Shown here one piece after another: positions 10,430 to 35,617 of a stretch of DNA of 64,000 nucleotides. Source of the stretch: an uncultured Acidobacteriota bacterium (GTDB lineage Bacteria > Acidobacteriota > Terriglobia > Terriglobales > Acidobacteriaceae); contig CAILAZ010000309.1 of the NCBI GenBank assembly GCA_903832295.1, positions 26,595 to 90,594 on the forward strand, read 5' to 3'. The notes under the pieces were generated by a model, which saw only the letters and a list, made by a program, of their open reading frames with translations, searched no databases and was not told where the DNA came from. Numbering within the stretch: position 1 is the first letter of the stretch; the number at the start of each line of letters is the position of its first letter. A program made the position numbers and the translations under genes.

Positions 10430-10552
10430 CTGACCTGCTGTATTGTCTTTCCACTCAAAGCCACTGAGTAACGCGCCCGAAACGGAGCGCGAAGGGAAAA
10501 AGGGTCAGAATACTGCCGACCCAATCCTGATGGCCCTCGACGGAGGTTCTAC

Positions 10553-12403: not shown

Positions 12404-12421
12404 ACACGCGTTAGAAGTGCA

Positions 12422-12447
12422 TGGCGGACGGCTAAGGCCGTCCGCCA
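12422..12447 (+). other. Intercistronic stem-loop lldP/lutC without T-tract
   Basis: TGGCGGACGGC-TAAG-GCCGTCCGCCA, perfect 11-bp stem. Confidence 0.7.
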
Positions 12448-12460
12448 ATAGAAGGAAATT

Positions 12461-13039
12461 ATGAACGCAATTCTGGAATCGTCACAGGTTTTCGAATCTT
12501 TCAGAACGCGCGCTGAAGCGGTGAGCGCCCAGGTGGAACGCGTTGCAACAAGCGAGCTGGCACTGGAGCTGATTATCAGCAAATTGCATCTCGAGGGTGT
12601 GCGAGACGAGGCCCATTGCTACGCGGTGTGGGCCGAGTGTCCAATGATAGGCACCCCGGAGAAGAAGCGGCTGGAGGCCGCGGTGCCGGGCCTGAAATTT
12701 GATGTGACACGTGAACTGGCGGCGGATGCAAAGGTGGGAGTGAGCCAGATGGACTGGGCGCTGGCCAATACAGGCACGCTTGTGCAGAGGGCGGATGAGG
12801 TGGATCGGCGGCTGGTATCGACCCTGCCCCTGCTGCACATAGCGCTGGTGGCAACGGCGGCCCTTCTTCCCGATCTTCCCTCGGTGCTGGCGAGAATCGA
12901 CCCGGCGAAGTCAAAGTACTTCTCATTTATCACGGGACCGAGCCGCACGGCAGACATCGAACGAGTGTTGACAATTGGAGTGCACGGCCCGGAACGGCTC
13001 CTGATTGTGCTTGTGGACGACCTGGAGGTGACGGCGTGA
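12461..13039 (+). CDS. lutC: Lactate utilization protein C (LUD domain)
   Basis: ADAKVGVSQMDWALANTGTLV..., SFITGPSRTADIERVLTIGVHGPERLLIVLVD. Confidence 0.88.
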   Translation: MNAILESSQVFESFRTRAEAVSAQVERVATSELALELIISKLHLEGVRDEAHCYAVWAECPMIGTPEKKRLEAAVPGLKFDVTRELAADAKVGVSQMDWALANTGTLVQRADEVDRRLVSTLPLLHIALVATAALLPDLPSVLARIDPAKSKYFSFITGPSRTADIERVLTIGVHGPERLLIVLVDDLEVTA

Positions 13040-15168
13040 AACAGGAATTCAAGCAATCCATACTCGATGCGCTGGCAAACCCGAATCTGACTGGAGCGCT
13101 GGGGAATTTCTCGGTGGCGTACCGCGCAGGGCGGGCCAAGGCTTACGAGGGCGTTGATTTTGAGGCGCTCCGCGATCAGATTGCAGAAATCAAGTCTTCC
13201 GCGTCCTCGCAATTCGATGTGCTGGCAGAACGGTTTTCGCAAGCGGCAGAGGCACAGGGGACAAAGGTATTCCGCACGAATGATCCGCAAGCGGTGAAGG
13301 ACTACATTCTCCGGCTGGCGCAGGATCGTGGAGTAAAGAGGATCGCCAAGTCAAAGTCGATGGCGACCGAGGAGATTCATCTTAACAAGCACCTGGAAAA
13401 GGCTGGCATCGATGTGCAGGAAACTGATCTCGGCGAGTGGATTATCCAGCTTGCAGGCCAGACGCCCTCGCACATGGTAATGCCCGCCATTCACATGACC
13501 AAGGAAGAGGTCGCCGACGTTTTCAGCAACAAGGTGGAAGATGGGCAGAAGCCGGATATTCCGAAACTGGTGAAATTCGCGCGAGGCAAGCTCCGCCCGA
13601 TGTTTCTAAGTGCCGAGATGGGAATCAGCGGCGCCAACATTGCGGTAGCGGAAACAGGCAGCATCGTCATCGTGACCAATGAAGGCAACGCCAGACTGGT
13701 GACTACACTGCCGAAGATTCATGTGGCGATTGTGGGACTGGAGAAGCTGGTGGAGCATTTCCAGGACATCGCGCCGATTCTGATTGCACTCCCCAAGAGC
13801 GCTACCGCGCAACTGCTGACCAGCTACGTTTCCATCATCAGCGGGCCGGTACCGAACACGGACGGCTCAGCCAAAGAGTTGCACGTGATCCTGATGGACA
13901 ACCGGCGCAATGAGATGTCGCACGATCCCCGTTTCAAGCAGGCCCTGCAATGCATCCGGTGTGCATCCTGCCTGAACGTCTGCCCGGTGTTCAGGCTGGT
14001 GGGCGGGCATGTGTTCGGCAAGGTGTACACGGGTGGCATTGGCACGATCCTTACGGCGTGGTTCAGTGCGCTCAAGGAATCCGACGAAATCCAGAGCCTT
14101 TGTATCCAATGCGGCAATTGCAAAGACGTGTGCCCCGGCAAGATCGATATCCCGGACCTGATTCTGGAGTTGCGACGCCGACTTGCCGTGGAACAGGGGC
14201 AGCCCTTGATACAGAAGGCGATCTTCTCAGTGGTCAACAACCGGAGGCTGTTCCATACCATGATGCGGGCTGCATCGATTGGGCAGAAGCCGTTTGCAAA
14301 GCAGGGATTCATCCGCCATCTGCCGCTTTTCCTGAGCAACATGACGGAGAACCGTTCACTGCCTGCGATTGCCGATGTTCCATTCCGTGACCGAATCAAG
14401 CAGATCGAGCAGCCCAAGTGCACGGAGAAGGCCGCGTTCTACGGAGGGTGCCTGATCGACTTCGCGTACCCAGGGATGGGCGAGTCCGTGGTAAAGGTGC
14501 TGAACAAGGCGGGCATCGAGGTAATCTTTCCCGAGGGCCAGACCTGCTGCGGCGCTCCGGCGCGATACAGCGGAGCTTACGAAGTTGCCGCGCAGAACGG
14601 AGCCGACAACATCAAGGCGCTGCTGGGAGAGGATGTGGACTATATCGTTTCGGCGTGCCCCACATGCACGGTAGCGCTGAAGCACGACTTCATCGCCAAC
14701 CTGGAATCCGTGGGGCGCACGGAGGAACTCCCGGCGGCACGACGGCTGGCGGAAAAGGTGGTGGATTTTTCCACGCTTGCCAGCCAGTTGGTGGAGCAGG
14801 GCAGGCTGAAGTTCAAGGCGGGCATTGAGCCGATGAAATTTACGTACCACGACTCATGCCACTTCAAGCGCACGCTGCACGCCGACCAGACTCCGCGCAA
14901 GCTGATGAAGCAGGCGGGATACGAAGTGGTTGAGATGGAAGAGGCTGACATGTGCTGCGGAATGGGCGGCTCCTACTCGATCAAGCTCCCCGAGATTTCG
15001 GCCCCGATTCTCGAACGCAAACTGGTGAACATTGAAAAGACGGGAGTGCCGCTGCTGCTGATCGACTGCCCGGGGTGCGTGATGCAGATCGGTGGAGGCC
15101 TGGACAAGCGTGCTTCCAACATCAAGGTGGAGCACACGGCACAGCGACTGGCAGAGTGCCTTGAATAG
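13036..15168 (+). CDS. LutB-LutA fusion: LUD domain, ferredoxin domain, two CCG domains
   Basis: LUD segment (GANIAVAETGSIVIVTNEGNARL), CIRCASCLNVCPVF/CIQCGNCKDVCPGKIDIP, CCG segments (TCCGAPARYSG, MCCGMGGSYSIK). Confidence 0.9.
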   Translation: MKQEFKQSILDALANPNLTGALGNFSVAYRAGRAKAYEGVDFEALRDQIAEIKSSASSQFDVLAERFSQAAEAQGTKVFRTNDPQAVKDYILRLAQDRGVKRIAKSKSMATEEIHLNKHLEKAGIDVQETDLGEWIIQLAGQTPSHMVMPAIHMTKEEVADVFSNKVEDGQKPDIPKLVKFARGKLRPMFLSAEMGISGANIAVAETGSIVIVTNEGNARLVTTLPKIHVAIVGLEKLVEHFQDIAPILIALPKSATAQLLTSYVSIISGPVPNTDGSAKELHVILMDNRRNEMSHDPRFKQALQCIRCASCLNVCPVFRLVGGHVFGKVYTGGIGTILTAWFSALKESDEIQSLCIQCGNCKDVCPGKIDIPDLILELRRRLAVEQGQPLIQKAIFSVVNNRRLFHTMMRAASIGQKPFAKQGFIRHLPLFLSNMTENRSLPAIADVPFRDRIKQIEQPKCTEKAAFYGGCLIDFAYPGMGESVVKVLNKAGIEVIFPEGQTCCGAPARYSGAYEVAAQNGADNIKALLGEDVDYIVSACPTCTVALKHDFIANLESVGRTEELPAARRLAEKVVDFSTLASQLVEQGRLKFKAGIEPMKFTYHDSCHFKRTLHADQTPRKLMKQAGYEVVEMEEADMCCGMGGSYSIKLPEISAPILERKLVNIEKTGVPLLLIDCPGCVMQIGGGLDKRASNIKVEHTAQRLAECLE

Positions 15169-16556: not shown

Positions 16557-17318
16557 TCAGCGCCCAAACGTCTTGAGCGTTACGCCGTCCTTATCGAGCT
16601 TGTGCTTTATGGCCTTGATCATTGCAAGCGCGCCCGCAGTGTCTCCGTGCACACAGATTGTTTCCGCTTGAATCGGTATCCCGGTCCCGTCAATGGCCAG
16701 GACTGTTCGATTGCGCACCATGTTCAAGACTCTTTGCGCGATGAAGTCAACATCCTGAAGGACTGCTCCCGCCTGAGTCCGGGGCACCAACCCGCCACTC
16801 CGGGTGTATGCACGGTCCGCAAACACCTCCTGCACGAAGGGCAGGCCTGCAGCCTGTGCCGCGGCGACCATGGCTGAACCACTGAGGCACACCATGATCA
16901 ACTCCGGGTCCACGGCCTTGATGGCTTGCGCAATTGCAGTTGCAACCGACGGGTTCTCCGCAGCCTTGTTATACAGCGCACCGTGGGCTTTTACATGATG
17001 GAGGCGTACGCCTGCGCGCCTGCAAAACGCCCAGAGTGCACCGACCTGATAAGTGACGTCGGCGGAAACTTCCTCGGCCGACACATTGATCTCCCGGCGA
17101 CCGAAGCCGACCAAGTCAGGATAGGAAGGATGTGCTCCAACGGCTACTCCGCACTGAACAGCGAGTCTGACCGTCTGCCACATTCTTGCCGGGTTGGAAG
17201 CATGAAAGCCACAGGCCACATTTGCGGAGGTGATGAGTGGCATGACCTGCTCGTCGATGCCGCAATCGTAAACCCCGAAACCTTCTCCCATATCGCAGTT
17301 CAGATCAATCGATAACAT
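16557..17318 (-). CDS. pxpA: 5-oxoprolinase subunit A (LamB/YcsF family)
   Basis: MLSIDLNCDMGEGFG...SANVACGFHASNP...VKAHGALYNKA. Confidence 0.92.
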   Translation of the reverse strand: MLSIDLNCDMGEGFGVYDCGIDEQVMPLITSANVACGFHASNPARMWQTVRLAVQCGVAVGAHPSYPDLVGFGRREINVSAEEVSADVTYQVGALWAFCRRAGVRLHHVKAHGALYNKAAENPSVATAIAQAIKAVDPELIMVCLSGSAMVAAAQAAGLPFVQEVFADRAYTRSGGLVPRTQAGAVLQDVDFIAQRVLNMVRNRTVLAIDGTGIPIQAETICVHGDTAGALAMIKAIKHKLDKDGVTLKTFGR

Positions 17319-18255
17319 GGCTGAGTCTCCGGTGAGCATCTTCATAGCAAGCCTGTTCGGCGATAAGGGCAGCAACGGCTTCTCGATCTGTGCAGATGGT
17401 GAACCTCACACGGTCGCCTGCTTTCATCTGCGCTACCTTGGGCAGATCGGGGCCGATGACTGTGGCTATCTTTGCGTATCCTCCAGTGGTCTGGCAATCG
17501 GAGGCCATGATGATAGGCATGCCGCTGCCGGGGACCTGAACCGATCCAGGACACAGCGCGTCGGAGACGATATCCGGGCCGCTGCCGTGGGCGATGGCAG
17601 GTCCCTCCAGTAGATAACCCATGCGGTCATGCCGGGTAGAGACAACATAGGGGCTATTGAGGAAGGTCAGCATCCCCTCGTCGGTAAAATGGTCATTTTG
17701 AGGGCCAAGCATGGCGCGCAATTGAAGATCACTTTCATAGGCTGGAACAAGGGACGATGGAAGTTCTGTGCGAGAGCTGCGGGAACATTCAGACGGAGCG
17801 ATGGAGAGGACATCCCCACTTTTCAGAGCTCTACCTTCATACCCTCCAAGATGAGCACGCAAGAATGTGGAACGGCTTCCCATGATCTCCGGCACGTCGA
17901 TTCCCCCTCGAAAAGCGACGTAGGACCGGCAACCAGTTACCGCGCATCGGAAAGCAAGCTCACTGCCGGGAGCAACGTAAAGAGCCGACCAGTTGGGGAT
18001 GCGGGCTCCATCCAACTGGGCCTGCATTTCTGCGCCGCAAATTGCAACGTAAACCCTGGCGGAGAATCTGAAACGGGCCCCGCGCATTGTCATTTCCACG
18101 ACAGCAGCGTTGCGCGGATTGCCCGCGAGGATATTGGCCATCGTGAATGCATAACGGTCCATGGCACCGGAAAGCGGCATTCCGAAAGCGCGATACCCGG
18201 AACGCCCATGATCCTGCACGGTACTCAAGATTCCGGGATCAATGACTGTGAGCAC
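17305..18255 (-). CDS. pxpC: 5-oxoprolinase subunit C (biotin-dependent carboxyltransferase-like, KipA)
   Basis: VIDPGILSTVQDHGRSGYRAFGMPLSGAMDRYAF..., AFRGGIDVPEIMGSRST. Confidence 0.9.
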   Translation of the reverse strand: MLTVIDPGILSTVQDHGRSGYRAFGMPLSGAMDRYAFTMANILAGNPRNAAVVEMTMRGARFRFSARVYVAICGAEMQAQLDGARIPNWSALYVAPGSELAFRCAVTGCRSYVAFRGGIDVPEIMGSRSTFLRAHLGGYEGRALKSGDVLSIAPSECSRSSRTELPSSLVPAYESDLQLRAMLGPQNDHFTDEGMLTFLNSPYVVSTRHDRMGYLLEGPAIAHGSGPDIVSDALCPGSVQVPGSGMPIIMASDCQTTGGYAKIATVIGPDLPKVAQMKAGDRVRFTICTDREAVAALIAEQACYEDAHRRLSHVID

Positions 18256-18994
18256 GGTTCTCGCCTCGGGCTGAAACGGTCATGAGCGGAGCGTAGGTAC
18301 CTGAATCAACCTGCTCCCTGATGGAGATGTATTCATCTTCAGAAATGGGTGCAAATTGAAGGTAGTCTCCGGCCGCAAAGAGAAATGGGCTTGGGGCGAG
18401 CGGGCGGAAGATGGTCACCGGGGTGCGCCCGATCAGTTGCCATCCGCCGGGGCTCTCCACAGGATAGATTCCGGTCTGCCGAGCGGCAATGCCAACCGAT
18501 CCGGCCGCGATCTTCACCCGGGGCACAGCGAGCCGGGGCGCAGCAATGCGCTCTGGAAGACCGCCGAGATAGGGAAAACCGGGCATGAATCCGAGCATAT
18601 AGACGAGGTATGGCAAAGAGGAATGAAGCGCGATCACCTCCTGCGCTGTTATGCCATTGTGCCGTGCAACAAACTCGAGATCGGGACCGAATTCGCCACC
18701 GTAACACACGGGGATTGTAATGGTTCTCCTGGTTTCGTTTACTCCCGCGGGTTCGGGGCTCTCCAATAACTCCGCAACCCTCTGCTGGAGGGCTTGCCAG
18801 CTGATGACGGCGGGATCGAAGTAGATCATGAGGGAGCGATAGGTGGGAACAACCTCGAGGATACGCGTCGGCATTTGGGCCATCAGAGTGCCGGCAAGGC
18901 GATGGACCCGTGCATTCACCACGGGATCTATCTCGTCGCCGAACTCAACGACCAATCCTTGCTCGCCTGCTTCGAGTATGCGAATCGGCTTCAT
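18239..18994 (-). CDS. pxpB: 5-oxoprolinase subunit B (KipI family)
   Basis: CYGGEFGPDLEFVARHNGIT..., MLGFMPGFPYLGGLPERIAAPRL, VPRVKIAAGSVGIAARQTGIYPVESPGGWQLIGRTP. Start set at MKPIRILEAG. Confidence 0.9.
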   Translation of the reverse strand: MKPIRILEAGEQGLVVEFGDEIDPVVNARVHRLAGTLMAQMPTRILEVVPTYRSLMIYFDPAVISWQALQQRVAELLESPEPAGVNETRRTITIPVCYGGEFGPDLEFVARHNGITAQEVIALHSSLPYLVYMLGFMPGFPYLGGLPERIAAPRLAVPRVKIAAGSVGIAARQTGIYPVESPGGWQLIGRTPVTIFRPLAPSPFLFAAGDYLQFAPISEDEYISIREQVDSGTYAPLMTVSARGENRAHSH

Positions 18995-19125
18995 CGTCTC
19001 CCCGGAGAGACCGTTGCGTGATCCGGCTATTATGCCACCCCGCTTCCGGGACAACCAATCGGCAAGCCAGGTTCGCTAGACGCGAGACCGCTGCTTCCAT
19101 GCATATTGCGCGGAAGCGGAACGGT

Positions 19126-20169
19126 TCAGAGGGAAGAGGAAATTCGGGAGCCGGGTCCGGAACCAACGAAACGCCCGAGGCGTCCGATTCGCATGCGAAG
19201 GCAATGATTACACTGGGTGGCGTTCTCATCGACACAGGCCTTGCCGGGATAGATTTCGTACATCTGGCGATAAGGGGCGGGCGTGAGGATGGGCATGAAA
19301 ACATTCCCGCCGCTTTCCAGTCCATGTTCGCGCCCGTCGGTGGTGTTGATGGTGGCGAGGGCGGTGGTCGCGGGCAAGTTGGCTTGCGGACAGACGATAC
19401 GGGTGAGAGCAACGGTCTTCAGGACCATCAATTCGGTGCTGGGAACCTGATCCTCCGCGGCGCTGGGGGTGGCGGGATCTCCGAGGGGCGTTTGAGGATG
19501 AGCAAGAAATGGACCGATACCGACCATGTCGAGATCGAGTTGCCCAAAGAGGCCGATATCGCAAGCCAGCATCTCGCAGGTCTGCCCGGGGATTCCGACC
19601 ATGACGCCGCTTCCGACTTCGTAGCCAATCTGCCGCATGAAACGCAACTGTCCGATGCGATCACTAGGCGTGGCTCCCCGCAGGGGATGAATGCGGGCGT
19701 AGAGTTCTGGATCCGAGGTCTCAAAGCGGAGCAGGTAACGATCTGCTCCGGCCTGCCGCCACAGACGCAGTTCGTCGGGAAGGCGCTCACCAAGGCTGAG
19801 GGTGACGGCGAGTGGGGTTTCGCTCTTGATGACGCGAACTACTTCGGCAATCCATTCCGGCGCGAGGCCGAAGTCTTCACCGGCCTGCAAGACCACAGTT
19901 CCGAAGCCGAGGAGCACTGCCTGGCGAGCACACTGAAGAATCTCCTCCCGGCTCATGCGATAGCGCGGGATGGCGCGTGCAGCGCGCAATCCACAGTAGA
20001 GACACTGGCGCACGCAGTGGTTGGAGATTTCAATGAGTCCGCGCAGGTGAACCGCGTCGCCCACATGAGTGCGACGAGTTGCATCGGCCCGGGCAAAGAG
20101 CTGCTCCAACGCTGCCGAATCGGGCTGGCGCAGCCACTGAAGAATCTCTGGGTGGGTCAACCCTGGCAC
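19126..20169 (-). CDS. hydE: [FeFe]-hydrogenase maturase HydE (radical SAM)
   Basis: EISNHCVRQCLYCGLRA (CxxxCxxC); AGEDFGL; C-terminal C-x7-C-x2-C (CVDENATQCNHC). Confidence 0.9.
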   Translation of the reverse strand: MPGLTHPEILQWLRQPDSAALEQLFARADATRRTHVGDAVHLRGLIEISNHCVRQCLYCGLRAARAIPRYRMSREEILQCARQAVLLGFGTVVLQAGEDFGLAPEWIAEVVRVIKSETPLAVTLSLGERLPDELRLWRQAGADRYLLRFETSDPELYARIHPLRGATPSDRIGQLRFMRQIGYEVGSGVMVGIPGQTCEMLACDIGLFGQLDLDMVGIGPFLAHPQTPLGDPATPSAAEDQVPSTELMVLKTVALTRIVCPQANLPATTALATINTTDGREHGLESGGNVFMPILTPAPYRQMYEIYPGKACVDENATQCNHCLRMRIGRLGRFVGSGPGSRISSSL

Positions 20170-20190
20170 TGGATGAAGTTCCTCCGCTGG

Positions 20191-21597
20191 CTACACGAAC
20201 ACATCACGCTTGCCTTTGCGCACAGCATCGATCATCGGGGTAGCGATTCGCCTCTGCTTGTCATCCATGGTCGCAACCTGATGGAGGATGTGCAGCTCCC
20301 CTGCCTGACGGGTGGCTGGAGAAGCATAGTCCTCCAGGTATTCGGTGAAAGTGGCGAGCGCGTTGGGCTCGCAGTGATACTTGATCGCTCCGGGCTTGGC
20401 GATGTCCATGAAGTCGGAACCGGTGCGTCCGGTGCGGTAGCAGGCAGTGCAGAAAGAGGGAGTGAAACCCATCTCCGCGATTTCGCGGACGACCTCATCG
20501 ACAGGGCGAATGTCTCCTACGGCAAACTGGCTGCTATGGAAGTCGCCCTGCGAGCGGGCGTAGCCGCCGGGATCGGTTCGGCTGCCGGCGGAAGTTTGTG
20601 AAATGCCGAGTTGGAAGCTCTGGTGGCGGATTGCGGACGACTCGCGGGTGGACATGATCAGGCCTGTGTAAGGAACGGCAAGGCGCAGGATCGCAGTCAA
20701 CTTGAGGAAGTCGGGGTCGCTCACCGTGTACGGGGTTGTGGCAGTAAAGTCGGTTCCCGATGCGGGTTCGAGGCGGGGAACGCTGATGGTGTGCGGCCCA
20801 CACCCAAAACGCTGCTCAAGGTGCTGTGCGTGCTGAAGCATCGCCAGCAACTCAAAGCGCCAATCGTAGATGCCGAGCAGAGCCCCAATGCCGACATCGT
20901 CAATTCCTGCCTCCATGGCACGGTCCATAACGGTGGCTCGCCAGTCGAAATCGCGCTTACGGCCCTGAAGATGGACACGGGCATAGGTTTCACGATGGTA
21001 GGTTTCCTGAAAGCACTGATATGTGCCGATGCCGGTGGCCTTGAGGTCACGAAAATCCGAGACGGAAAGAGGCGCGACGTTGACGTTTACGCGGCGAATT
21101 TCACCATTGCCGGAGCGGGTTGCATACACGGTTTCCACGGCCGAGTGGACGTACTTCAGACTGTTGTGGTCCGGGTAGGACTCTCCGGCGACAACGAGAA
21201 TACGCTTGTGTCCCTGCTCGATGATGACCCTGGTCTCGGCGGCAATTTCTTCCTGGGAGAGAACGCGGCGATGCAACTCACGATTGCTGGCTCGATATGC
21301 GCAATAGGTGCACTCATTGGCGCAAAGATTGCTGATGTAAAGTGGCGCGAACAAAACCAGGCGTGATCCGTAAATCTCCTGCTTGATGGAGCGGGCAGCG
21401 GCAAACAACTCACTCATGAGCTCAGGATCGTCCACGGCTACAAGGGCGGTGGTCTCGTTGAAGCTTAACCCCTGCATGGCTTTTGCTTTGTCCAGAATGG
21501 CCCGAATGCGCGCGGGTTCAGGACGAGCACGTTCCCTGAGACAATCGAAGATGACCTGTTCGTTGATGTAGGTGGCAATTCCCGCAGCTTCAGACAC
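20191..21597 (-). CDS. hydG: [FeFe]-hydrogenase maturase HydG (radical SAM tyrosine lyase)
   Basis: SNLCANECTYCAYRASN (CxxxCxxC); C-terminal FCTACYRTGRTG...C; GTG start at 21597 with AGGAG upstream gives 468 aa. The 642-aa ORF in the track overlaps aspA and is over-extended. Confidence 0.92.
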   Translation of the reverse strand: MSEAAGIATYINEQVIFDCLRERARPEPARIRAILDKAKAMQGLSFNETTALVAVDDPELMSELFAAARSIKQEIYGSRLVLFAPLYISNLCANECTYCAYRASNRELHRRVLSQEEIAAETRVIIEQGHKRILVVAGESYPDHNSLKYVHSAVETVYATRSGNGEIRRVNVNVAPLSVSDFRDLKATGIGTYQCFQETYHRETYARVHLQGRKRDFDWRATVMDRAMEAGIDDVGIGALLGIYDWRFELLAMLQHAQHLEQRFGCGPHTISVPRLEPASGTDFTATTPYTVSDPDFLKLTAILRLAVPYTGLIMSTRESSAIRHQSFQLGISQTSAGSRTDPGGYARSQGDFHSSQFAVGDIRPVDEVVREIAEMGFTPSFCTACYRTGRTGSDFMDIAKPGAIKYHCEPNALATFTEYLEDYASPATRQAGELHILHQVATMDDKQRRIATPMIDAVRKGKRDVFV

Positions 21598-21645
21598 TAA
21601 TAAATCTCCTACCATACGAATAAACCCAATCCGGCGATAGGTGCG

Positions 21646-21659
21646 GTGATTTGGATCAC
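21646..21659. promoter_or_regulatory. CRP/FNR-type palindrome GTGAT-TTGG-ATCAC in the hydG/aspA divergent promoter region
   Basis: Perfect 14-bp inverted repeat; also reads as GGTGA-N6-TCACT. Confidence 0.6.
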
Positions 21660-21715
21660 TCGCGGGCTTACTCCGGACTTGGCGGTTTGGACACAATGGA
21701 TAGACAATTGACTGC

Positions 21716-23203
21716 ATGGAGATGGATCGAGGGCAAAGCATGACCCAGCCGCAACGCATGGAAGCCGACGATCTAGGCCAGCGAGCGCTCCCCATTGAGG
21801 CGCTGTTTGGAATCCACACTGCACGTGCGATCGAGAATTTCACCCTGGCGGGGCGTCCGGTCCATGGAGCGCTGGCCCGCGCCTTTGGCGACGTAAAACT
21901 CAGTTGCGCGCTGACAAATCGCGCATTGGGATCGTGGGCAGATGATGCCGCCAAGGGCGATGCGATTGAGCGCGCCTGCCGCGACCTGGGTGAGGGGCTG
22001 CTCGACGCCCACATTGTGGTGGACGCTTTGCAGGGCGGGGCCGGCACCAGCACAAACATGAACGTGAACGAGGTTGTGGCGAACCGTGCACTGGAGTTGC
22101 TGGGGGAAGCGCACGGCAATTACGACCGGGTTTCACCGCTCAACGATGTCAACCTGCATCAATCCACAAACGATACCTACCCGACGGCGCTGAAACTGGC
22201 GGCGATCCGATTGCTGCACAAACTGGAAGCGCAAGTGATCTCTCTGCAGGAGTCTTTCCAGAGGGCAGAAAAGCGCTTTGCGCACATTGTGAAAGTGGGC
22301 CGGACTCAGTACCAGGACGCTGTGCTGACCACTCTTGGCCGCGAGATGGGCGCGTATGCGGAGGCGATCAATCGGGACCGATGGCGTATTTACAAGTGCG
22401 AGGAACGGTTGCGGGTCGTGAACCTGGGTGGAACTGCGATTGGCACCGGACTGGCTGCGCCGCGTGAGTTTATCTTTGGCGCCGTGGAGCAGTTGCGCTC
22501 ACTGACGGGGATCGGGTTTGCCCGCGCGGAGAACCTGGTGGAGGCAACGCAGAATACAGACGTCTATGTCGAAGTCTCGGGAATCCTGAAGGCACACGCC
22601 GTCAGCCTGCTGAAGATCTGCTCGGACCTGCGACTGCTCTCCTCCGGTCCAGATGCGGGGTTGGGCGAGATTCGTCTGCCTGCAAGGCAGGCGGGCTCGT
22701 CGATTATGCCTGGCAAGGTGAATCCTGTGATTCCCGAAGCCGTCAGCCAAGCGGCCATGTTGGCAATTGGAAATGACGGAGTAATCACCGCTGCCTGCGC
22801 CGCAGGCAGCCTGGAACTCAATGCGTTCCTGCCGTTAATCGCACACTGTCTGCTTGGAAACATAGACCTGTTGACGGGAGCATGTGACATCTTGAGCCGT
22901 CATTGCGTGGAGGGGATTGAGGCAGACGAGGCCAGATGCCGCGCTCACGTGGAGAATTCCACGGCGGCCGCAACGGCGCTGCTTCCTGTGCTGGGATACA
23001 GCCGGGCTGCAGAAGCTGTCCGGATTTCGAGATCAGAGGGCAGAACATTGCGCGCAGTAGTCACGGAGAACGAATGGATGAGCGCGGGAGCTTTCGACGC
23101 ATGCATCAGCCCAGAAGCGGTCTGCCGACTGGGTTCGCCGCGCGCGGCGGTGGAAGTGCCGGTTACTGCTCGCCTGTCTCCTGAGAAGGGCCGGTCGAAA
23201 TGA
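21716..23203 (+). CDS. aspA: Aspartate ammonia-lyase family protein
   Basis: Fumarase/aspartase signature GSSIMPGKVNP; GGAGTSTNMNVNEV; STNDTYPTALK. Stop overlaps the hydF start (ATGA). Confidence 0.9.
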   Translation: MEMDRGQSMTQPQRMEADDLGQRALPIEALFGIHTARAIENFTLAGRPVHGALARAFGDVKLSCALTNRALGSWADDAAKGDAIERACRDLGEGLLDAHIVVDALQGGAGTSTNMNVNEVVANRALELLGEAHGNYDRVSPLNDVNLHQSTNDTYPTALKLAAIRLLHKLEAQVISLQESFQRAEKRFAHIVKVGRTQYQDAVLTTLGREMGAYAEAINRDRWRIYKCEERLRVVNLGGTAIGTGLAAPREFIFGAVEQLRSLTGIGFARAENLVEATQNTDVYVEVSGILKAHAVSLLKICSDLRLLSSGPDAGLGEIRLPARQAGSSIMPGKVNPVIPEAVSQAAMLAIGNDGVITAACAAGSLELNAFLPLIAHCLLGNIDLLTGACDILSRHCVEGIEADEARCRAHVENSTAAATALLPVLGYSRAAEAVRISRSEGRTLRAVVTENEWMSAGAFDACISPEAVCRLGSPRAAVEVPVTARLSPEKGRSK

Positions 23204-24444
23204 GTTCCACAGCAAAGGGCTTGCGGTTGCATATCGGATTGTTCGGACGGCGGAACGTTGGCAAATCGAGTCTATTGAACGCCATCACCCGGCAATCGGT
23301 ATCGATCGTCTCTCCAATTGCCGGGACGACGACGGATCCTGTCGAGAAGCCAATGGAGCTGCTTCCGCTCGGTCCTGTGTTGTTCATCGATACGGCAGGA
23401 ATCGACGAAGAAGGTGCCCTGGGAGCTTTGCGCGTTGGAAAGACACGACAGGTTTTCGAGCGAACCGAGGTGGCAATTCTGGTAGCGGAACCCGGTATCT
23501 GGGGCAGGTTCGAGGAGGAACTTGTCGCTGAGTTTTCTGCGCGGCAGACGCCGGTGATCGTTGTGTTCAATAAAGTCGATCTTGCTGCGGCAGACGACAC
23601 GGTTGTGGAGCGGTTGCGTGCGGCACAATTATGCGTGGTTATGGCCTCAGCAATTACCGGACAGGGTCTCGCGGAACTGAGGCGGGCGCTGCTGGATCTG
23701 GCACCCCCGGATTTCATTGATTCGCCATCCATTGTTGGCGACCTGGTTGGCCCGGGCGAAATGGTTGTGCTGGTGGTTCCCATCGACAAAGAGGCTCCGA
23801 AGGGACGACTGATTTTGCCTCAGGTTCAGACGATCCGCGACCTGCTGGACAGCGATGCCATCTGCATGGTGGTGAAGGAACGTGAGCTTCGCACCGCGCT
23901 TGCACGCCTGAATACACCACCCAGGCTGGTGGTGACCGATTCGCAGGCTTTTCTGAAAGTTGCCGCAGACACGCCAAAGGAGGTCGCGCTGACCAGTTTC
24001 TCCATTCTGATGGCGCGTTTCAAAGGCAATCTGACTGCACAGGTAGAGGGCACGCTTGCCATCGAGAAGCTGCGCTCCGGGGACCGTATTCTGGTAGCGG
24101 AGGCGTGTACGCATCATCCCATTGGCGAAGACATTGGGCGGGTGAAGATTCCCCGCTGGCTGGCGCAGTACACTGGTGCCAAGCTGGATTTCGTTTCCAT
24201 GCAAGGGCTTGATTTTCCTGATGATCTGAGCAGTTACAAGCTGGTGATCCACTGTGGAGCCTGCATGTGGAATCGACGGCAGATGCTTAGCCGCATCCTG
24301 CAGTGCAAACAGGCTGGCGTTCCTATTACCAACTACGGGCTGACGATCGCCTACAGTCTGGGGATTTTCGGACGCGCGCTGGAGCCGTTCCCGGCGGCTT
24401 TGGCGCTTTATCAGGAACTGGAAGGTCCGCCTCCAAGAGCATGA
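23200..24444 (+). CDS. hydF: [FeFe]-hydrogenase maturation GTPase HydF
   Basis: P-loop GLFGRRNVGKSSLLNAI; C-terminal HCGACMWNRRQMLSRI and ...PITNYGLTIAYSLGIFGRAL. Confidence 0.92.
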   Translation: MSSTAKGLRLHIGLFGRRNVGKSSLLNAITRQSVSIVSPIAGTTTDPVEKPMELLPLGPVLFIDTAGIDEEGALGALRVGKTRQVFERTEVAILVAEPGIWGRFEEELVAEFSARQTPVIVVFNKVDLAAADDTVVERLRAAQLCVVMASAITGQGLAELRRALLDLAPPDFIDSPSIVGDLVGPGEMVVLVVPIDKEAPKGRLILPQVQTIRDLLDSDAICMVVKERELRTALARLNTPPRLVVTDSQAFLKVAADTPKEVALTSFSILMARFKGNLTAQVEGTLAIEKLRSGDRILVAEACTHHPIGEDIGRVKIPRWLAQYTGAKLDFVSMQGLDFPDDLSSYKLVIHCGACMWNRRQMLSRILQCKQAGVPITNYGLTIAYSLGIFGRALEPFPAALALYQELEGPPPRA

Positions 24445-24489
24445 ATCTATGTGCTTTACCTTCCTTTTGTAGCATGGTCATAAGCTCTC

Positions 24490-24503
24490 GTGACAGCCAT
24501 CAC
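24490..24503. promoter_or_regulatory. CRP/FNR-type palindrome GTGA-CAGCCA-TCAC upstream of the gltD-like/hydA genes
   Basis: CGTGACAGCCATCACT; same core as the 21646 site. Confidence 0.5.
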
Positions 24504-24677
24504 TGGCCACCGTGTGGGGTTGCCGTAGTATTCAGGCGGGCAGGATGCTCGTGACGCCGCACTCTGGCGGACCCTTGGTGCGGATGCGATTACGGAAGTG
24601 CGCATTTGCCCAACTGATTGCGAGTCGAGATTTTGCAGGGCGAACACTGGGAACCGGCCGGCAACGGCCTGGGGACC

Positions 24678-26687
24678 ATGAAAGAGAACACCATGGCCCG
24701 TCTTTATTATGGAGTCTGGAACGGCTTGGTTCTAGACAATCGCGGCAGAAGCGCTGCGAGCGATCCTTTTTCCGAATTTGAGCGGTTTGGAGACTTCAAC
24801 GAAGGAAACCCTATTCGCGCATTTTTCGGCGATTTGGGCTTTCTTGTTTTTGACCCAAAAGTGAGTCTTGTGGACGCTTTCTGGCGTTACCTGGACGAGG
24901 CGGCCAAACAGTCTTGCGGCAGATGCACGCCATGCCGAATGGGAACTGTGCTGGTGCGTGACTCGCTGGACCGGTTGCGCAAGGGGATGGTGCCGCAACT
25001 TGATTTCGAAGGTATTCGTGCCCTGGCGCAGCAGATGACAGAGACCTCGCTGTGCGGTCTTGGCCAGACCTGCGCCAAGGCGCTGCTGGGGGCGCTCGAT
25101 CATTTCCGCGACCGACTTGAGGCCGAGGTCGCGACCCTCCGGGTTCCCGAGCAGAATGGCATGACGTACATGACGGCGCCATGCATCCAGGCCTGCCCTT
25201 CCAAGATCAACGTGCCTCGCTACATTGACTACATCCGTGATGGAAAGCCAGAGCACTCCCTGGGAGTGATTCTGCAGAAGTACCCGATGGCCGCCACCTG
25301 CGGCCGGGTCTGCGTAAGATTCTGCGAGATGGCATGCAGGCGCAACCTGGTAGATCAGGCGGTGAGCATCAAGACGCTCAAGCGCTATGTCGCCGATCAC
25401 CAGAAGGGAAAGCGGGAACTCCGTTTTAATGAAGACCTGATAGCCCATCCGTTGCCGGAAGATATGCGGGTCGCAGTAGTAGGAGCCGGACCGGCCGGAG
25501 TGTCTTGTGCCTATCACCTTCTACTCCGCGGCTATCACGTGGATATTCTGGAAGCCGGCGGCACAGCCGGTGGCATGGCGGCCATTGGAATTCCCGCCTA
25601 TCGGCTTCCCAAAGATGTATTAAAATCCGAGACCGATATTATTACCGCACTCGGCGGGCGCTTCCTCTTCAAACAGGCTCTTGGACGAGAATATTCCGTG
25701 GATGACCTGTTCCAGCGCGGCTACAAAGCAGTGTTCCTTGCGCTGGGATGCCAGCAGGGCACACGCTTGGGTGTGAAGGATGAGGATCCCACGCTTGCAG
25801 GCTATGAGGCGGGTATCGGATTCCTGCTGAAGGTTCACGACCACATTGCGGGGATCAAGATCACCAGATTGTCAGGCGAGGTTGTGGTGGTTGGCGGCGG
25901 AAACGTAGCAATGGATTGCGTGCGCTCCGCCCTGCGAATGGGTGCGGAAAAAGTGCACCTGGTGTATCGCCGCACCCGCGAGGACATGCCCGCCGACGAG
26001 GAAGAAATCAAAGCAGCCGAAGAGGAAGGAGCAATTTTCCACTTTCTTTCCAATCCCGCAGCGGTGAAGTCCGAGGATGGCCGGGTGATTGGACTGGAAC
26101 TGGTGAAGATGCGCTCGACCGATGCCGACGCGCAAGGAAGGCGCAACGTGCAGGCCATCCCTGGCACCGAACACTTTATGCCCTGCACGACACTGATTGC
26201 TGCCATAGGACAGCAAGTACAAAGCGGTGTGATCCAATCTGGCGACGGAGTGACGATGAACCGCTGGAACTGCGTTGACGCCCAACCGATTAACCTGATG
26301 ACATCACGCCCGGGCGTCTTCGCCGGCGGTGACTGCGCATCCGGCCCCTCGACGTTGATTCATGCAATGGCAAACGGACTCCAGGCAGCGCGCTCGATTG
26401 ACGACTGGATACAACTTGGGCAGGTACGCTTCTCGCCACGAGTGCGAATGCGACGAATCCTGAATGAACACAAGATGCTGAACTCTGATTGCGTTGATAT
26501 TCCGGTGAAGTTGGAGTACCGCGTGCACCACCCGGAGTTGGACCCCGAAGTGCGCAAGTACATGTTCGAAGAAGTGGAACGTACGATCAGCCCTGAGGAG
26601 GCTTATCACGAGGCCAAGCGCTGCATGCGCTGTTACCGGATCTACTCGGTCATCACCGAGCATCCCATTCCGGAAGGGGCGTCATAG
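24678..26687 (+). CDS. NuoF C-terminal [4Fe-4S] domain fused to GltD-like FAD/NAD(P)H oxidoreductase, hydrogenase-associated
   Basis: SCGRCTPCRMG...CGLGQTC (NuoF N3-type ligands); CIQACPSKINVPRYI...CGRVCVRFCEMACRR; VAVVGAGPAGVSCAYHLL (FAD); VVVVGGGNVAMDCVRSALRMGAEKVHLVYRR (NAD(P)H). No NuoF FMN/NADH-binding domain. Confidence 0.9.
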   Translation: MKENTMARLYYGVWNGLVLDNRGRSAASDPFSEFERFGDFNEGNPIRAFFGDLGFLVFDPKVSLVDAFWRYLDEAAKQSCGRCTPCRMGTVLVRDSLDRLRKGMVPQLDFEGIRALAQQMTETSLCGLGQTCAKALLGALDHFRDRLEAEVATLRVPEQNGMTYMTAPCIQACPSKINVPRYIDYIRDGKPEHSLGVILQKYPMAATCGRVCVRFCEMACRRNLVDQAVSIKTLKRYVADHQKGKRELRFNEDLIAHPLPEDMRVAVVGAGPAGVSCAYHLLLRGYHVDILEAGGTAGGMAAIGIPAYRLPKDVLKSETDIITALGGRFLFKQALGREYSVDDLFQRGYKAVFLALGCQQGTRLGVKDEDPTLAGYEAGIGFLLKVHDHIAGIKITRLSGEVVVVGGGNVAMDCVRSALRMGAEKVHLVYRRTREDMPADEEEIKAAEEEGAIFHFLSNPAAVKSEDGRVIGLELVKMRSTDADAQGRRNVQAIPGTEHFMPCTTLIAAIGQQVQSGVIQSGDGVTMNRWNCVDAQPINLMTSRPGVFAGGDCASGPSTLIHAMANGLQAARSIDDWIQLGQVRFSPRVRMRRILNEHKMLNSDCVDIPVKLEYRVHHPELDPEVRKYMFEEVERTISPEEAYHEAKRCMRCYRIYSVITEHPIPEGAS

Positions 26688-26689
26688 CC

Positions 26690-28522
26690 ATGAATTCCTA
26701 TACCGTCGAACCCTCTGCGCTGATAAAGGCCTCCATCAACGGACAAGCGGTTACCGCCGAAGCAAATGAGACGATTCTGAGTTGCGCACGGCGGCATCAG
26801 ATACACATTCCCACGTTATGCGAGATGCAGGATATTGACCATGCGCCCGGTACGTGCAGGGTGTGCCTCGTCGAGATCCATATGCCTGGCCGCGAACAAC
26901 CCCAGACCGTTACCAGTTGCAATACCCCGGTACATGATGGAATGGAGATTCAGACCCGCACGCCTCGGATCCGCGAGATGCAGCGGTTGCAGGTGGAACT
27001 TCTGTTGGCTGACCACAACCAGGACTGCGCCACCTGCGTTCGCCATGGAAACTGTGAATTGCAGGACGTGTGTCAGTTTGTTGGACTCCAGTCAAACCGC
27101 TTCTTTGATCCAGTTCGCGTGGCTTCAAGGAAGGTGGACCGCACCTCGCCCGCGCTGATCCGCGACATGACCAAGTGCATCCGATGCCAACGTTGTGTTG
27201 CACTCTGCCGCGACGGACAGGGAGTGGACGCACTGGTGATTACCGGGACCGGGCAGGACACCGCTGTGGGATTGCATTATGGGCCATCGCAGAAGGATTC
27301 CACTTGTGTCACCTGCGGACAGTGCGTGCTGGTGTGCCCGACCGGAGCGCTGGGCGCGCGCGATGAGACCGACGCAGCTCTCGATATGCTGTATGACCCA
27401 GAGATCATCACGGTGTTTCAGTTTGCGCCCGCTGTGCGTGTTGGCTTCGGCGAAGAATTCGGAATGCCCCCGGGAAGCAACGTTGAAGGAGAGATCATCA
27501 GCGCGTTGCGCCAGATGGGCGCAGACATCGTGCTCGACACGAACTTTGCCGCCGATGTCGTGATCATGGAGGAGAGCACTGAGTTGCTGCGGCATCTCTC
27601 GGCCAACCGGCGTCCGACCTTTACTTCGTGCTGCCCGGCGTGGATTAACTTCGCCGAGCGCCACTATCCCGATATCCTGCCATTGCTGTCGTCAACCAAG
27701 TCTCCGCAGCAGTGCCTAGGGAAGATTGCCAAGACGTATCTACCCGAACGCATGGGCCTTGATCCTGCGCGAATCCGCGTCATCTCAATCATGCCCTGCA
27801 CCGCGAAGAAGGATGAACGGGTGCGCGGACAACTCGCCGAGAACGGCGTGCCCGAGGTGGATCTGGTGTTGACCACCCGCGAATTTGCGCGGCTGTTGAA
27901 ACGCCAGGGGATCAATCTTGCCACGCTCGAAAAATCCACATTCGACAATCCCTACATGACGAACTATTCGGGTGCGGGCGCAATCTTCGGGACCACTGGC
28001 GGCGTGATGGAAGCGGCAGTGCGAACCATGTACAAGACCGTAACCGGCAAGGAACTGGATCAGATGGAGCTGACGCAACTGCGCGGCTTCGAGGGAATCC
28101 GGTCAGCCACGGTGCAGGTTGGCGACCTTGAAGTAAAGGTGGCCATGTGCCACGGGCTGAAGTCGGCGCGCGAAATCGTTGAGGCCGTCCGCGCCGGAAC
28201 TGTTGATTTTGACTTCATCGAGATCATGGCCTGTCCTGGAGGGTGCGTGGACGGAGGCGGCACTCTGCGATCCAAGAAGGCGTATCGTCCGTTCGCAGCG
28301 AAACGACGCGAGACCATGTTCGCCATCGACCGGAATGCAAAAATCCGCCAATCGCATAACAATCCGCAGGTGAAGGCACTCTACGAAAACTTCCTGGAGC
28401 ACCCTTATTCGGAAAAAGCTCACCACTTGCTCCATACGTACTACACAGATCGCCACATCAACATGGTGCGGACGGTGAAGGAAATCTGGAACGAGATTAC
28501 GATGAGCACGATGGTGTACTGA
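26690..28522 (+). CDS. hydA: [FeFe]-hydrogenase, group A, M3-type modular (2Fe2S, HC3C, 2x4Fe4S, H-cluster)
   Basis: H-cluster motifs TSCCPAW, MPCTAKKDE, EIMACPGGCVDGGG; HNQDCATCVRHGNC; CIRCQRCVALC; CVTCGQCVLVCP. Confidence 0.95.
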   Translation: MNSYTVEPSALIKASINGQAVTAEANETILSCARRHQIHIPTLCEMQDIDHAPGTCRVCLVEIHMPGREQPQTVTSCNTPVHDGMEIQTRTPRIREMQRLQVELLLADHNQDCATCVRHGNCELQDVCQFVGLQSNRFFDPVRVASRKVDRTSPALIRDMTKCIRCQRCVALCRDGQGVDALVITGTGQDTAVGLHYGPSQKDSTCVTCGQCVLVCPTGALGARDETDAALDMLYDPEIITVFQFAPAVRVGFGEEFGMPPGSNVEGEIISALRQMGADIVLDTNFAADVVIMEESTELLRHLSANRRPTFTSCCPAWINFAERHYPDILPLLSSTKSPQQCLGKIAKTYLPERMGLDPARIRVISIMPCTAKKDERVRGQLAENGVPEVDLVLTTREFARLLKRQGINLATLEKSTFDNPYMTNYSGAGAIFGTTGGVMEAAVRTMYKTVTGKELDQMELTQLRGFEGIRSATVQVGDLEVKVAMCHGLKSAREIVEAVRAGTVDFDFIEIMACPGGCVDGGGTLRSKKAYRPFAAKRRETMFAIDRNAKIRQSHNNPQVKALYENFLEHPYSEKAHHLLHTYYTDRHINMVRTVKEIWNEITMSTMVY

Positions 28523-33479: not shown

Positions 33480-33727
33480 CGCTGGCTCTAAGGTGGTGTG
33501 GCGTCGGTTCACCTTTTCCACCTAAGGTATTCCTCGGGAAAGACCTTAGTCCTAAGACACTGCGAAGGTCCAGCGCACTCCCCTGCTTGCGGTATTTTTC
33601 GCTACACAGGCAACCGAGTGCGCTTATTTGCGTCAATCGCCGCCTTGCTCTGTGATATAACCGTCGGACTTTATCTCACCGCAGCGGCAGTTGAAGCGGA
33701 GAGTTTCGATTGGTTTCAGGAGGATAT

Positions 33728-35557
33728 GTGGCCACACCGAGCGGCGCTAACGAAAGACCGTCCAAGCCCAACTTACCTGCGAAATCCGAAAGCTGGGTCA
33801 CCGTCATCGTCCTCACGGTTGTTGCTGCGGGAGCAGCAGCCTGGTTGCTGAATACGAACCACGTCACCTCACCATGGCAGCAGAATTACGATCCCGTCGG
33901 ACACTGGTTGCTCTCCGCGCTCGTTGCGGCGCTCCCTGTCATCGTGCTCCTTGGAAGCCTTGCTCTCGGACACGTCAAGGCGCACTATGCTGCCCTTGCG
34001 GGTCTGGCCACCGCGCTTTTGACCGCAATCCTGGGCTTCCACATGCCCGCGAGGCTGGCCCTTACCACTGCCGTTTACGGTGCAGGCTACGGGTTATTTC
34101 CCATTGGCTGGATCGTGCTCAACGTGATCTTCATGTATCAACTCACGGTTGAGTCCGGACGATTCAAGGTGCTCCAGCACAGCCTGACTGGCATCACCCA
34201 GGACCGCCGCCTCCAGTTGTTGTTGATCGCGTTCTGCTTCGGAGCCTTCTTCGAGGGCGCGGCAGGTTTTGGAACACCGGTCGCTGTCACCGCTGCCCTG
34301 CTCATCGGACTCGGCTTCAAACCGCTTCAAGCCTCCGGTCTTTCTCTCATCGCCAACACTGCCCCCGTTGCTTTCGGAGCTCTGGGCACCCCGATCATCG
34401 CACTTGCCAAAGTGACCGGATTCAGCGAAGTAGTACTCGCCGCCATGACCGGGCGCATCCTCGCTCCCTTCTGCATCATCGTTCCCTTCTGGCTGATCTG
34501 GGCATTCGTCGGATTCAAGGGGATGGTCGAGGTTTGGCCCGCAATCCTGGTGGCTGGAGTCTCATTCGCCGTGCCGCAGTTGCTGGTTTCCAATATGCAC
34601 GGCCCATGGTTGGTGAACGTGATCTCCGCCGTCATTTCTATGATCTGCCTTATCGGATTCCTGCTGGTCTGGCATCCAAAGAAAATCTGGACATTCGCGG
34701 ATGAGACCAGCAAGAGCGCCAGGGCGGACCACGGCTACAGCCGCGCCGATATCTCTCGTGCCTGGGTGCCATGGATCATTCTCAGCGTGATTGTATTCAC
34801 CTGGGGAACACAGACCGGCAAGCTCTGGATGAATACACCAGAGAAAGTCATTCCTTCCACCTCAACATGGAATCCAAAGCCGAGCCAGATTACCAACCCG
34901 CAGTTTCCGGTCGCCGGACTTCACAACAATGTCGAGCGCGTCCCTCCCGTGGTGCTGAAGCCAACCAAAGAGCCTGCCGTATTCCAGCTCAACTGGGTGA
35001 GCGCAACCGGAACGGGCATTCTGCTTTCGGCTGTTCTGTCAGGACTTGTGATGGGGGTATCCTTCAGCGGGATCTTCCGGATCTACCTGAACACAATCCA
35101 CAAAGTGCGCTTCTCTCTCCTGACCATTGCTGCAATGCTTGCCGTCGGCATGCTGACCCGCTACAGCGGGCTGGATGCCACCATGGGGCTGGCGTTCGCC
35201 AAGACCGGGCAGTTCTATCCCTTCTTTGGCACCATGCTGGGCTGGCTTGGAGTGGCACTCACCGGCTCTGACACCTCTTCCAATGTGCTGTTCGGCAGTC
35301 TGCAGAAGATCTCCGCGCAGCAGGTGGGCGTCTCACCCATTCTGATGTCTGCCGCCAACAGCACCGGCGGAGTGATGGGCAAGATGATCGACGCCCAGAG
35401 TATCGTCGTGGCATCCACTGCAACCCAGTGGTACGGCCACGAGGGCGATATTCTGCGTTATGTATTTCTGCACAGCCTTGTACTGGCCGCGCTGGTCGGC
35501 GTTTACGTCTATCTACTCGCCTACATTCCCCCTTTCACGCAGCTCGTAGTGCATTAA
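33728..35557 (+). CDS. lldP: L-lactate permease, second paralog
   Basis: Near-identical in protein to 10553..12403; likely GTG start after AGGAGG. Confidence 0.9.
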   Translation: MATPSGANERPSKPNLPAKSESWVTVIVLTVVAAGAAAWLLNTNHVTSPWQQNYDPVGHWLLSALVAALPVIVLLGSLALGHVKAHYAALAGLATALLTAILGFHMPARLALTTAVYGAGYGLFPIGWIVLNVIFMYQLTVESGRFKVLQHSLTGITQDRRLQLLLIAFCFGAFFEGAAGFGTPVAVTAALLIGLGFKPLQASGLSLIANTAPVAFGALGTPIIALAKVTGFSEVVLAAMTGRILAPFCIIVPFWLIWAFVGFKGMVEVWPAILVAGVSFAVPQLLVSNMHGPWLVNVISAVISMICLIGFLLVWHPKKIWTFADETSKSARADHGYSRADISRAWVPWIILSVIVFTWGTQTGKLWMNTPEKVIPSTSTWNPKPSQITNPQFPVAGLHNNVERVPPVVLKPTKEPAVFQLNWVSATGTGILLSAVLSGLVMGVSFSGIFRIYLNTIHKVRFSLLTIAAMLAVGMLTRYSGLDATMGLAFAKTGQFYPFFGTMLGWLGVALTGSDTSSNVLFGSLQKISAQQVGVSPILMSAANSTGGVMGKMIDAQSIVVASTATQWYGHEGDILRYVFLHSLVLAALVGVYVYLLAYIPPFTQLVVH

Positions 35558-35569
35558 CCTGTTACACGG

Positions 35570-35595
35570 GGCGGCCATGATTCTTCCTGGCCGCC
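35570..35595 (+). other. Intercistronic stem-loop between second lldP and the D-lactate dehydrogenase
   Basis: GGCGGCCA-N10-TGGCCGCC; no T-tract. Confidence 0.6.
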
Positions 35596-35617
35596 TCATC
35601 TTTCCAGGAGCAATCAT

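Follow-up and report, generated by a model that had tools for sequence, protein, structure and literature searches.

An acidobacterial [FeFe]-hydrogenase locus of the A2-like type suggests an NADPH-linked, non-bifurcating partner for HydA

The stretch of DNA analysed here, hereafter the window, comprises 64,000 nucleotides (positions 26,595 to 90,594, forward strand) of contig CAILAZ010000309.1 from an uncultured member of the Acidobacteriaceae (assembly GCA_903832295.1), and carries at 19126-28522 a compact [FeFe]-hydrogenase locus of six genes. The maturase genes hydE and hydG, on the reverse strand, diverge from aspA, hydF, a gene coding for a fusion protein, and hydA, all on the forward strand (Table 1). 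The fusion protein, named FUS below, has 664 residues and joins a NuoF-type C-terminal [4Fe-4S] domain to a GltD-like protein. Gene identities were assigned by profile searches against the curated cut-offs of NCBIfam models and by Pfam domains, and they agree in genes, order, strands and coordinates with the layout proposed in an earlier sequence-only reading of this DNA. The acidobacterial origin inferred in that reading is plausible on the sequence evidence: the assembly yielded no 16S gene, the acidobacterial ADOP marker was uninformative (13 hits, all under the cut-off, with controls responding as well), comparison of RpoB gave no match in the named acidobacterial genome, and a flank gene had only distant hits among plasmid records.

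Table 1. Features of the hydrogenase locus in window coordinates. FUS residue numbers, here and in the text, follow the 689-residue frame starting at 24618.
Feature	Position	Strand	Evidence
hydE, radical S-adenosylmethionine (SAM) H-cluster maturase, 347 aa	19126..20169	-	TIGR03956, 301 bits (cut-off 255); CVRQCLYC
hydG, radical-SAM maturase, start MVGDLL; open frame extends to 22119	20191..21615	-	TIGR03955, 518 bits (cut-off 312)
Divergent hydG/aspA intergenic region, presumed regulatory	21616..21715	.	Position only
aspA, aspartate ammonia-lyase family, 495 aa	21716..23203	+	PRK12273, 603 bits (cut-off 510); GSSIMPGKVN and STNDTYPT
hydF, H-cluster scaffold GTPase, 414 aa	23200..24444	+	TIGR03918, 559 bits (cut-off 326)
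FUS, NuoF-type C-terminal [4Fe-4S] and GltD/NfnL-like FAD-NAD(P)H domain, 664 aa	24693..26687	+	PF10589, PF14691, PF07992
FUS domain 1, NuoF/HydB 'B1'-type [4Fe-4S] site, C100 C103 C106 C146	24876..25124	+	Cys invariant, 77/77
FUS domain 2, DPD_II-type two-[4Fe-4S], with Lys255	25173..25409	+	Ligands and K255 invariant
FUS domain 3, FAD- and NADP(H)-binding Rossmann domains, R329, GGGNVAMD, YRR450-452	25464..26378	+	PF07992; invariant residues
FUS C-terminal ligand pair C669, C672, belonging to the DPD_II clusters	26622-26633	+	
hydA, [FeFe]-hydrogenase group A catalytic subunit, 610 aa	26690..28522	+	TIGR02512, 506 bits (cut-off 406); Pfam domains
H-cluster motif L1, TSCCPAW	27623..27643	+	Within hydA
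H-cluster motif L2, MPCTAKKDE	27791..27817	+	Within hydA
H-cluster motif L3, MACPGGCVDGGG	28226..28261	+	Within hydA

The H-cluster motifs and the Fe-S motifs of the maturases are intact, as had been claimed. HydG, whose start was placed near 21615, retains both CANECTYC and the C-terminal CTAC...C, and HydF retains GRRNVGKS, C303 and HC352xxC355. AspA scores above the PRK12273 subfamily cut-off but under the stricter aspA equivalog cut-off of 681 bits. The aspA and hydF genes overlap by 4 nt, hydF and FUS are 248 nt apart, and only 2 nt separate FUS from hydA; the start of FUS most likely lies at 24693 rather than at 24618, many homologues being about 665 residues long. No sigma-70-like match was found in the divergent intergenic region, and promoter and terminator scanning gave results no better than chance. 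HydA comprises a [2Fe-2S] domain, a His-[4Fe-4S] domain, a two-[4Fe-4S] domain, the H-domain and the small-subunit domain, and its TIGR02512 score together with L1, L2 and L3 places it among the group A [FeFe]-hydrogenases. All the ligands of these clusters and of the H-cluster are present and invariant across 79 relatives, and Cys315, at the proton-relay position of CpI type, is a Cys in 78 of them.

With regard to FUS, invariance was scored over 77 homologues. C100, C103, C106, C146, C193, C232, C236, C240, C669, C672 and Lys255 are found in all of them, and C189 in 76, the remaining row being gapped there. By homology to DPD, we take the ligands of the two DPD_II clusters to be C189/C240/C669/C672 and C193/C232/C236/Lys255. 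In FUS the Cys pair is C-terminal, as in StnC, whereas that of NfnL is N-terminal. The AlphaFold2 model of FUS is confident (pLDDT, the predicted local distance difference test score, 86.5), and the closest PDB folds are NfnABC and StnC, ranking before NfnL, DPD and GltD; the best sequence match of the flavin module is also of the StnC/NfnABC type.

This resemblance to the NADPH module of the Stn-type transhydrogenases (StnC or the A subunit of NfnABC; 8oh5, 9bov, 9n5u) covers the flavin adenine dinucleotide (FAD)-NADPH domain, the C-terminal Cys pair and the Lys ligand. FUS Lys255 corresponds to StnC Lys170, and a Glu is present at the equivalent site in NfnL and in the GltD of the host genome itself. 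In StnC, Lys170 is strictly conserved and ligates the flavin-proximal cluster, with Glu instead in the bifurcating NfnB, and the FAD is reported to be NADPH-oxidising and non-bifurcating (PMC10482914). Furthermore, Arg451-Arg452 is invariant in FUS and common to NfnL and StnC, whereas the two other StnC-like paralogues of the host genome carry Leu-Glu. On these comparisons, the flavin domain of FUS is of the StnC type, closer to the StnC/NfnABC NADPH modules than to GltD. The setting of the module is different: in StnC it is fused to a NuoG-like domain and feeds a bifurcating core containing flavin mononucleotide (FMN), neither of which accompanies FUS, where it is fused to B1 and predicted to feed HydA. 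FUS is not an Nfn (NfnSL) protein either, with Lys rather than Glu at position 255 in 77/77 homologues and no NfnS-like gene in the locus.

A scan covering one genome per species, with HydA as the sole query, yielded 80 related loci, and in every one of them (80/80) FUS stands directly upstream of hydA on the same strand, mostly with a spacing of -10 to +30 nt. This adjacency is far beyond chance, and it bears out the proposal that the GltD-like partner is tightly linked to HydA. The loci come from Alphaproteobacteria (Rhodopseudomonas, Rhodoplanes, Magnetospirillum and Pleomorphomonas), Rhodocyclales, Chromatiaceae, Desulfobacterota, Eisenbacteria, Krumholzibacteria and Verrucomicrobia, and include one Acidobacteriaceae metagenome-assembled genome (MAG). 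The pairwise distances of FUS track those of HydA with a correlation of 0.92 when all loci are taken and of 0.96 for the loci with all six genes, and the correlation of HydA with the maturases or AspA is lower (0.72-0.90). Among the 50 fully flanked loci, 14 have a maturase near FUS-hydA and 36 have none within about 9 kb. Taken together, the constant pairing, the distance correlations and the scarcity of nearby maturases indicate that the functional unit is FUS-HydA, with the maturases forming a module of their own. The locus had been called self-contained, which holds insofar as all the maturases are present here, but such an arrangement is atypical of its relatives. Within the maturase block, AspA and HydF distances correlate at 0.97, in agreement with the reported association of aspA with hydF and with the in vitro supply of nitrogen for dithiomethylamine by AspA and aspartate (PMC11736057). 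The recurring neighbours identified around FUS-hydA are maturases, AspA and ABC (ATP-binding cassette) transporter parts, and no third redox gene travels along with the pair. In one relative, the hydA open frame (2791-4212) is shortened at its 5' end and follows FUS after a 467-nt gap, possibly as the result of a frameshift or as a pseudogene.

The gene position occupied by FUS was also inspected elsewhere in the phylum, at 30 hydA loci. A HydB-like C-terminal domain is encoded directly upstream of hydA in 24 of them, and a GltD-like end in five. Four of these five are readable in full, the fifth leaving its contig, and they code for proteins of 1019-1112 residues directly upstream of hydA. 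In three of these four long HydB-GltD proteins, Pfam detected FMN (PF01512), B1, DPD_II and FAD domains, with a thioredoxin-like [2Fe-2S] domain in one. Long proteins of this kind, with both FMN/NADH and FAD/NADPH heads, are candidate enzymes with two nucleotide sites. FUS aligns with their C-terminal part, has all 16 diagnostic sites in common with them, and is without their first 376-457 residues, which form the FMN/NADH head. It therefore looks like a HydB-GltD protein minus its NADH head, the B1 docking adaptor being retained; the head may have been either lost or gained. A HydB with a DPD_II-FAD tail is known as sub-type I BfuB of the group A3 BfuABC enzymes from Hydrogenedentota (PMC11406978). 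FUS resembles it in the order of B1 [4Fe-4S], DPD_II and FAD/NAD(P) domains and in its position beside HydA, and differs by the absence of the thioredoxin-like [2Fe-2S] domain, the FMN/NADH domain, most of the SLBB domain and a HydC partner. Cluster B1 passes electrons to the BfuA/HydA subunit in those HydB homologues that do not bifurcate, and the BfuBC core required for bifurcation consists of FMN and clusters B1-B5 and C1 (PMC9304861). Only B1 is present in FUS, PF01512 and the thioredoxin-like [2Fe-2S] domain are missing, and there is no hydC in the locus; the group A3/Bfu bifurcating core is thus absent.

The hydrogenase had been assigned to the GltD-linked type resembling group A2, and this assignment stands in part. 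According to HydDB, sequence alone cannot subdivide group A, and the mark of an A2 enzyme is that the next gene downstream of the one for the catalytic subunit codes for a GltD-type protein, without NuoF (PMC5037454). A neighbour of HydA with a GltA/GltD-type domain is indeed present (PF07992 and PF14691, with GltD-family models below their cut-offs), but FUS lies upstream in the window as in the 80 relatives, and the gene downstream of hydA in the window codes for an EamA transporter. FUS also bears traces of NuoF, namely PF10589, without the FMN domain PF01512 and with a nuoF_fam score of 62 bits against a cut-off of 559. Owing to the upstream position of the partner and, less clearly, to the retained NuoF C-terminal [4Fe-4S] domain, the HydDB rule as written would not cleanly return A2; the enzyme is best termed A2-like, and its membership of HydDB group A2 ('glutamate synthase-linked, putative') is partial. 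In a quick tree, with long branches among the references, the FUS-linked HydAs including this one form a single clade (SH-aLRT 100), apart from the A3 enzymes of A. woodii and T. kivui and from the A1 enzyme CpI, as the A2-like assignment had required. The closest solved relatives of HydA are A3 HydA1 subunits, and its top-scoring model is that of the NADH-dependent group A6 (NF040763; 730 bits, under the cut-off of 765), members of which have a similar HydA domain layout but possess the FMN/NADH HydB or HydC partner lacking here. The Acidobacteriaceae MAG bog_316 harbours, besides its FUS-HydA pair, a second HydA of the A6-like group (768 bits against 765) beside hydF and hydE (6188-11362). 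In Collinsella aerofaciens, the two genes have the same order, fusion protein then HydA, and the partner is 34% identical to FUS with all 16 diagnostic sites; since the Collinsella HydA nevertheless falls outside the FUS-linked clade, A2 may be polyphyletic.

From gene content, pairing, ligands and domain homology, as read from the sequence, we infer complex formation, NADPH preference, a non-bifurcating mode, a direction and an electron chain, and it is on balance probable that the locus encodes a cytoplasmic two-subunit enzyme, FUS-HydA, with its own maturation set, acting as a non-bifurcating NADPH:H+ oxidoreductase. NADP(H) and FAD would be bound by the StnC-like domain of FUS, from which single electrons would pass from FAD through the two DPD_II [4Fe-4S] clusters to the NuoF-type B1 cluster docked on HydA, then along the Fe-S wire of HydA to the H-cluster. 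The net reaction would be NADPH + H+ <-> NADP+ + H2, with neither ferredoxin nor bifurcation. In vivo, the enzyme, although reversible, would most likely vent excess NADPH as H2 under anoxia and low H2 pressure, and HydEFG would assemble the H-cluster, with AspA providing the ammonium that the dithiomethylamine bridge requires and releasing fumarate alongside. The energetics appear reasonable: the cellular NADPH/NADP couple lies at about -370 to -380 mV and H2 at 250 Pa at -340 mV (PMC9304861, PMC6288185), and by our own arithmetic NADPH could drive H2 formation up to a few kPa. A literature search among open-licence papers found no characterised FUS-HydA enzyme. More broadly, we tentatively propose, at somewhat short of even chances, that FUS-HydA is a widespread, dedicated NADPH-specific and non-bifurcating hydrogenase in which a StnC-type NADPH/FAD head on the B1 adaptor replaces, or is what remains of, the NADH/FMN head of HydB. 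A single slot beside hydA would then accommodate a series of exchangeable heads for electron entry (HydB, HydB-GltD and FUS), and A2 would have to be redefined as NADPH-linked.

Several alternatives were weighed against this proposal. The same linear two-subunit enzyme might be specific for NAD(H), coupling H2 oxidation to NAD reduction, as the HydDB entry for A2 has it ("may couple H2 oxidation to NAD reduction"; PMC5037454) and as the existence of non-bifurcating NADH-dependent [FeFe]-hydrogenases, for instance in Syntrophomonas wolfei, makes conceivable; the missing FMN/NADH domain and the Arg-Arg pair, found in the NADPH-binding StnC and NfnL and not in the Leu-Glu paralogues of the same genome, nonetheless make this unlikely. 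We give still less credit to an FAD-based bifurcating or confurcating hydrogenase in which the electrons divide between HydA and another acceptor such as ferredoxin or NAD. The homology of the FUS domain to bifurcating NfnL and the conserved N5-protecting Arg would suit it, but Lys instead of Glu occupies the NfnL proximal-cluster site, there is neither an NfnS partner nor a ferredoxin-type B3/B4 domain, and no third redox gene accompanies the pair among the neighbours identified. As the six-cluster FMN core of HydB-type bifurcation and the Glu signature of NfnL are both absent, the reaction is best read as linear and without bifurcation. Similarly improbable is that FUS acts as a ferredoxin:NADP+ reductase that is encoded in the same operon as an A1-like, ferredoxin-dependent HydA and communicates with it only through free ferredoxin. 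A shared operon is by itself no proof of a complex, and HydA has the full A1/M3-like Fe-S wire; conversely, the B1 domain, known for contacts with subunits of the HydA/NuoG type, is invariant, the A3 HydA1 subunits closest to this HydA work in complexes, and the HydA-FUS distances are strongly correlated (0.92-0.96). As for FUS being a true glutamate synthase small subunit passing electrons from H2 to GltB, only the domain naming speaks in its favour, the GltD-like NCBIfam models matching well under their cut-offs (TIGR01318 278 against 483 bits, TIGR01317 likewise missed). The gltB and gltD genes lie on another contig and no gltB occurs in the window or in 82 related loci, so that the 'glutamate synthase-linked' label of the sequence-only reading was not borne out and this role, which we regard as very improbable, was rejected.

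A number of points nevertheless weigh against a non-bifurcating NADPH-dependent FUS-HydA. Because of the 248-nt gap between hydF and FUS, a single transcript across aspA-hydF-FUS-hydA is not assured. HydDB suggests, by way of a guess, NAD and not NADP for A2, and the argument for NADP(H) drawn from Arg-Arg stems from comparison rather than from a solved complex of FUS. Arg329, the counterpart of R201 which protects the FAD N5 in NfnL, is conserved, but as it is also found in the non-bifurcating StnC it is non-discriminating. Moreover, FUS has a Val where StnC has Cys114, and the mechanism does not account for an ABC importer adjoining FUS-hydA in 24 of the 80 relatives. This importer is of the NMT1/taurine-sulfonate type (NMT1/SsuA-like binding protein, permease and ATPase). 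Its substrate-binding protein is present in 27/80 loci, of Alphaproteobacteria and Desulfobacterota, and the 24 adjacent cases are either downstream or divergent upstream. A homologous importer also lies directly downstream (11500-13938) of the distant HydA of Collinsella, and none of the NMT1 type occurs in the present window. The association may offer a clue to the physiological setting of the class.

The function of group A2 [FeFe]-hydrogenases continues to be described as unresolved (PMC6776011 in 2019, PMC12578642 in 2025). The FUS-hydA pair is common in public genomes, and the value of the present locus is in the sharp hypothesis that it provides for this group: judged from its domains, the electron partner found here has the appearance of an NADPH adaptor and not of a part of glutamate synthase. 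The anatomy yields one prediction, namely that NADPH alone should drive the formation of H2, or arise from H2, through a single two-subunit enzyme in need of neither ferredoxin nor a second acceptor. If this is true, cofactor regeneration would gain a simple couple of H2 and NADPH, and a misleading class name would be corrected. Classifiers reading only the downstream gene would also mislabel such enzymes, the EamA gene leading here to A1 by default.

The locus further documents an [FeFe]-hydrogenase in a lineage where no sampled family member has one. Among 396 sampled genomes of the phylum, 61 have an [FeFe]-hydrogenase, none of them among the 20 same-family genomes listed in this sample, and a close FUS (E below 1e-150) was found only in the genome studied here. 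The phylum HydAs examined are 39-44% identical to this HydA, and Alphaproteobacterial FUS-linked HydAs reach 66-80%. Genes on both contig flanks match same-genus genomes, mostly at 64-78% DNA identity, and the right-hand neighbours of galE are kept in two same-genus genomes, with different genes to the left of galE. The isolated FUS, the closer Alphaproteobacterial HydAs and the same-genus flanks suggest that the FUS-hydA pair was probably acquired horizontally. The maturases look to have a history other than that of the pair, since the nearest counterparts of hydE and hydF are those of a Desulfobacteraceae MAG within the set of 80 loci, or those of Acidobacteriaceae bog_316 (63% and 59%). An exact empty site was not found in the same-genus comparison, which included no hydA search in the three genomes. 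The G+C contents of the hyd genes, overall (GC) and at third codon positions (GC3), equal those of the flanks; there is no recent foreign signature, and a compositional island was ruled out. MAG contamination was also rejected as the main reading of the odd phylogeny on account of the two matching flanks, the hyd genes themselves being without such a match.

Elsewhere in the window, lactate-use clusters flank the hyd locus, with an L-lactate permease and an LUD/Fe-S protein (LutB/LldF-like) on the left (10553-15168), and a second L-lactate permease and a FAD/Fe-S protein resembling D-lactate or glycolate dehydrogenases on the right (33710-38485). Lactate oxidation may be the source of the electrons vented as H2. 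A complete 5-oxoprolinase set, pxpA-pxpC-pxpB (16557-19054), is directly beside hydE and is also found in a same-genus genome. The host genome carries on another contig (1155-5070) genes resembling hybA-hybB-hybC of an uptake [NiFe]-hydrogenase; the HybC-like enzyme together with the POR-family proteins of this genome makes internal H2 cycling possible. A further contig (2254-8763) encodes a NuoG-GltD protein (702 residues) paired with a NuoF-like protein (535 residues) near genes resembling those of acetate/butyrate kinase and phosphate acetyltransferase; this NuoG-GltD protein is a second StnC-type flavoprotein, with Leu-Glu and not Arg-Arg at the NADP site. Finally, large and small subunits of a divergent [NiFe]-hydrogenase are encoded on a contig together with a cytochrome b, a multihaem cytochrome c and a flavoprotein that resembles StnC but has additional 4Fe-4S domains; with all models far below their cut-offs, these subunits possibly belong to an unusual hydrogenase or reductase complex.

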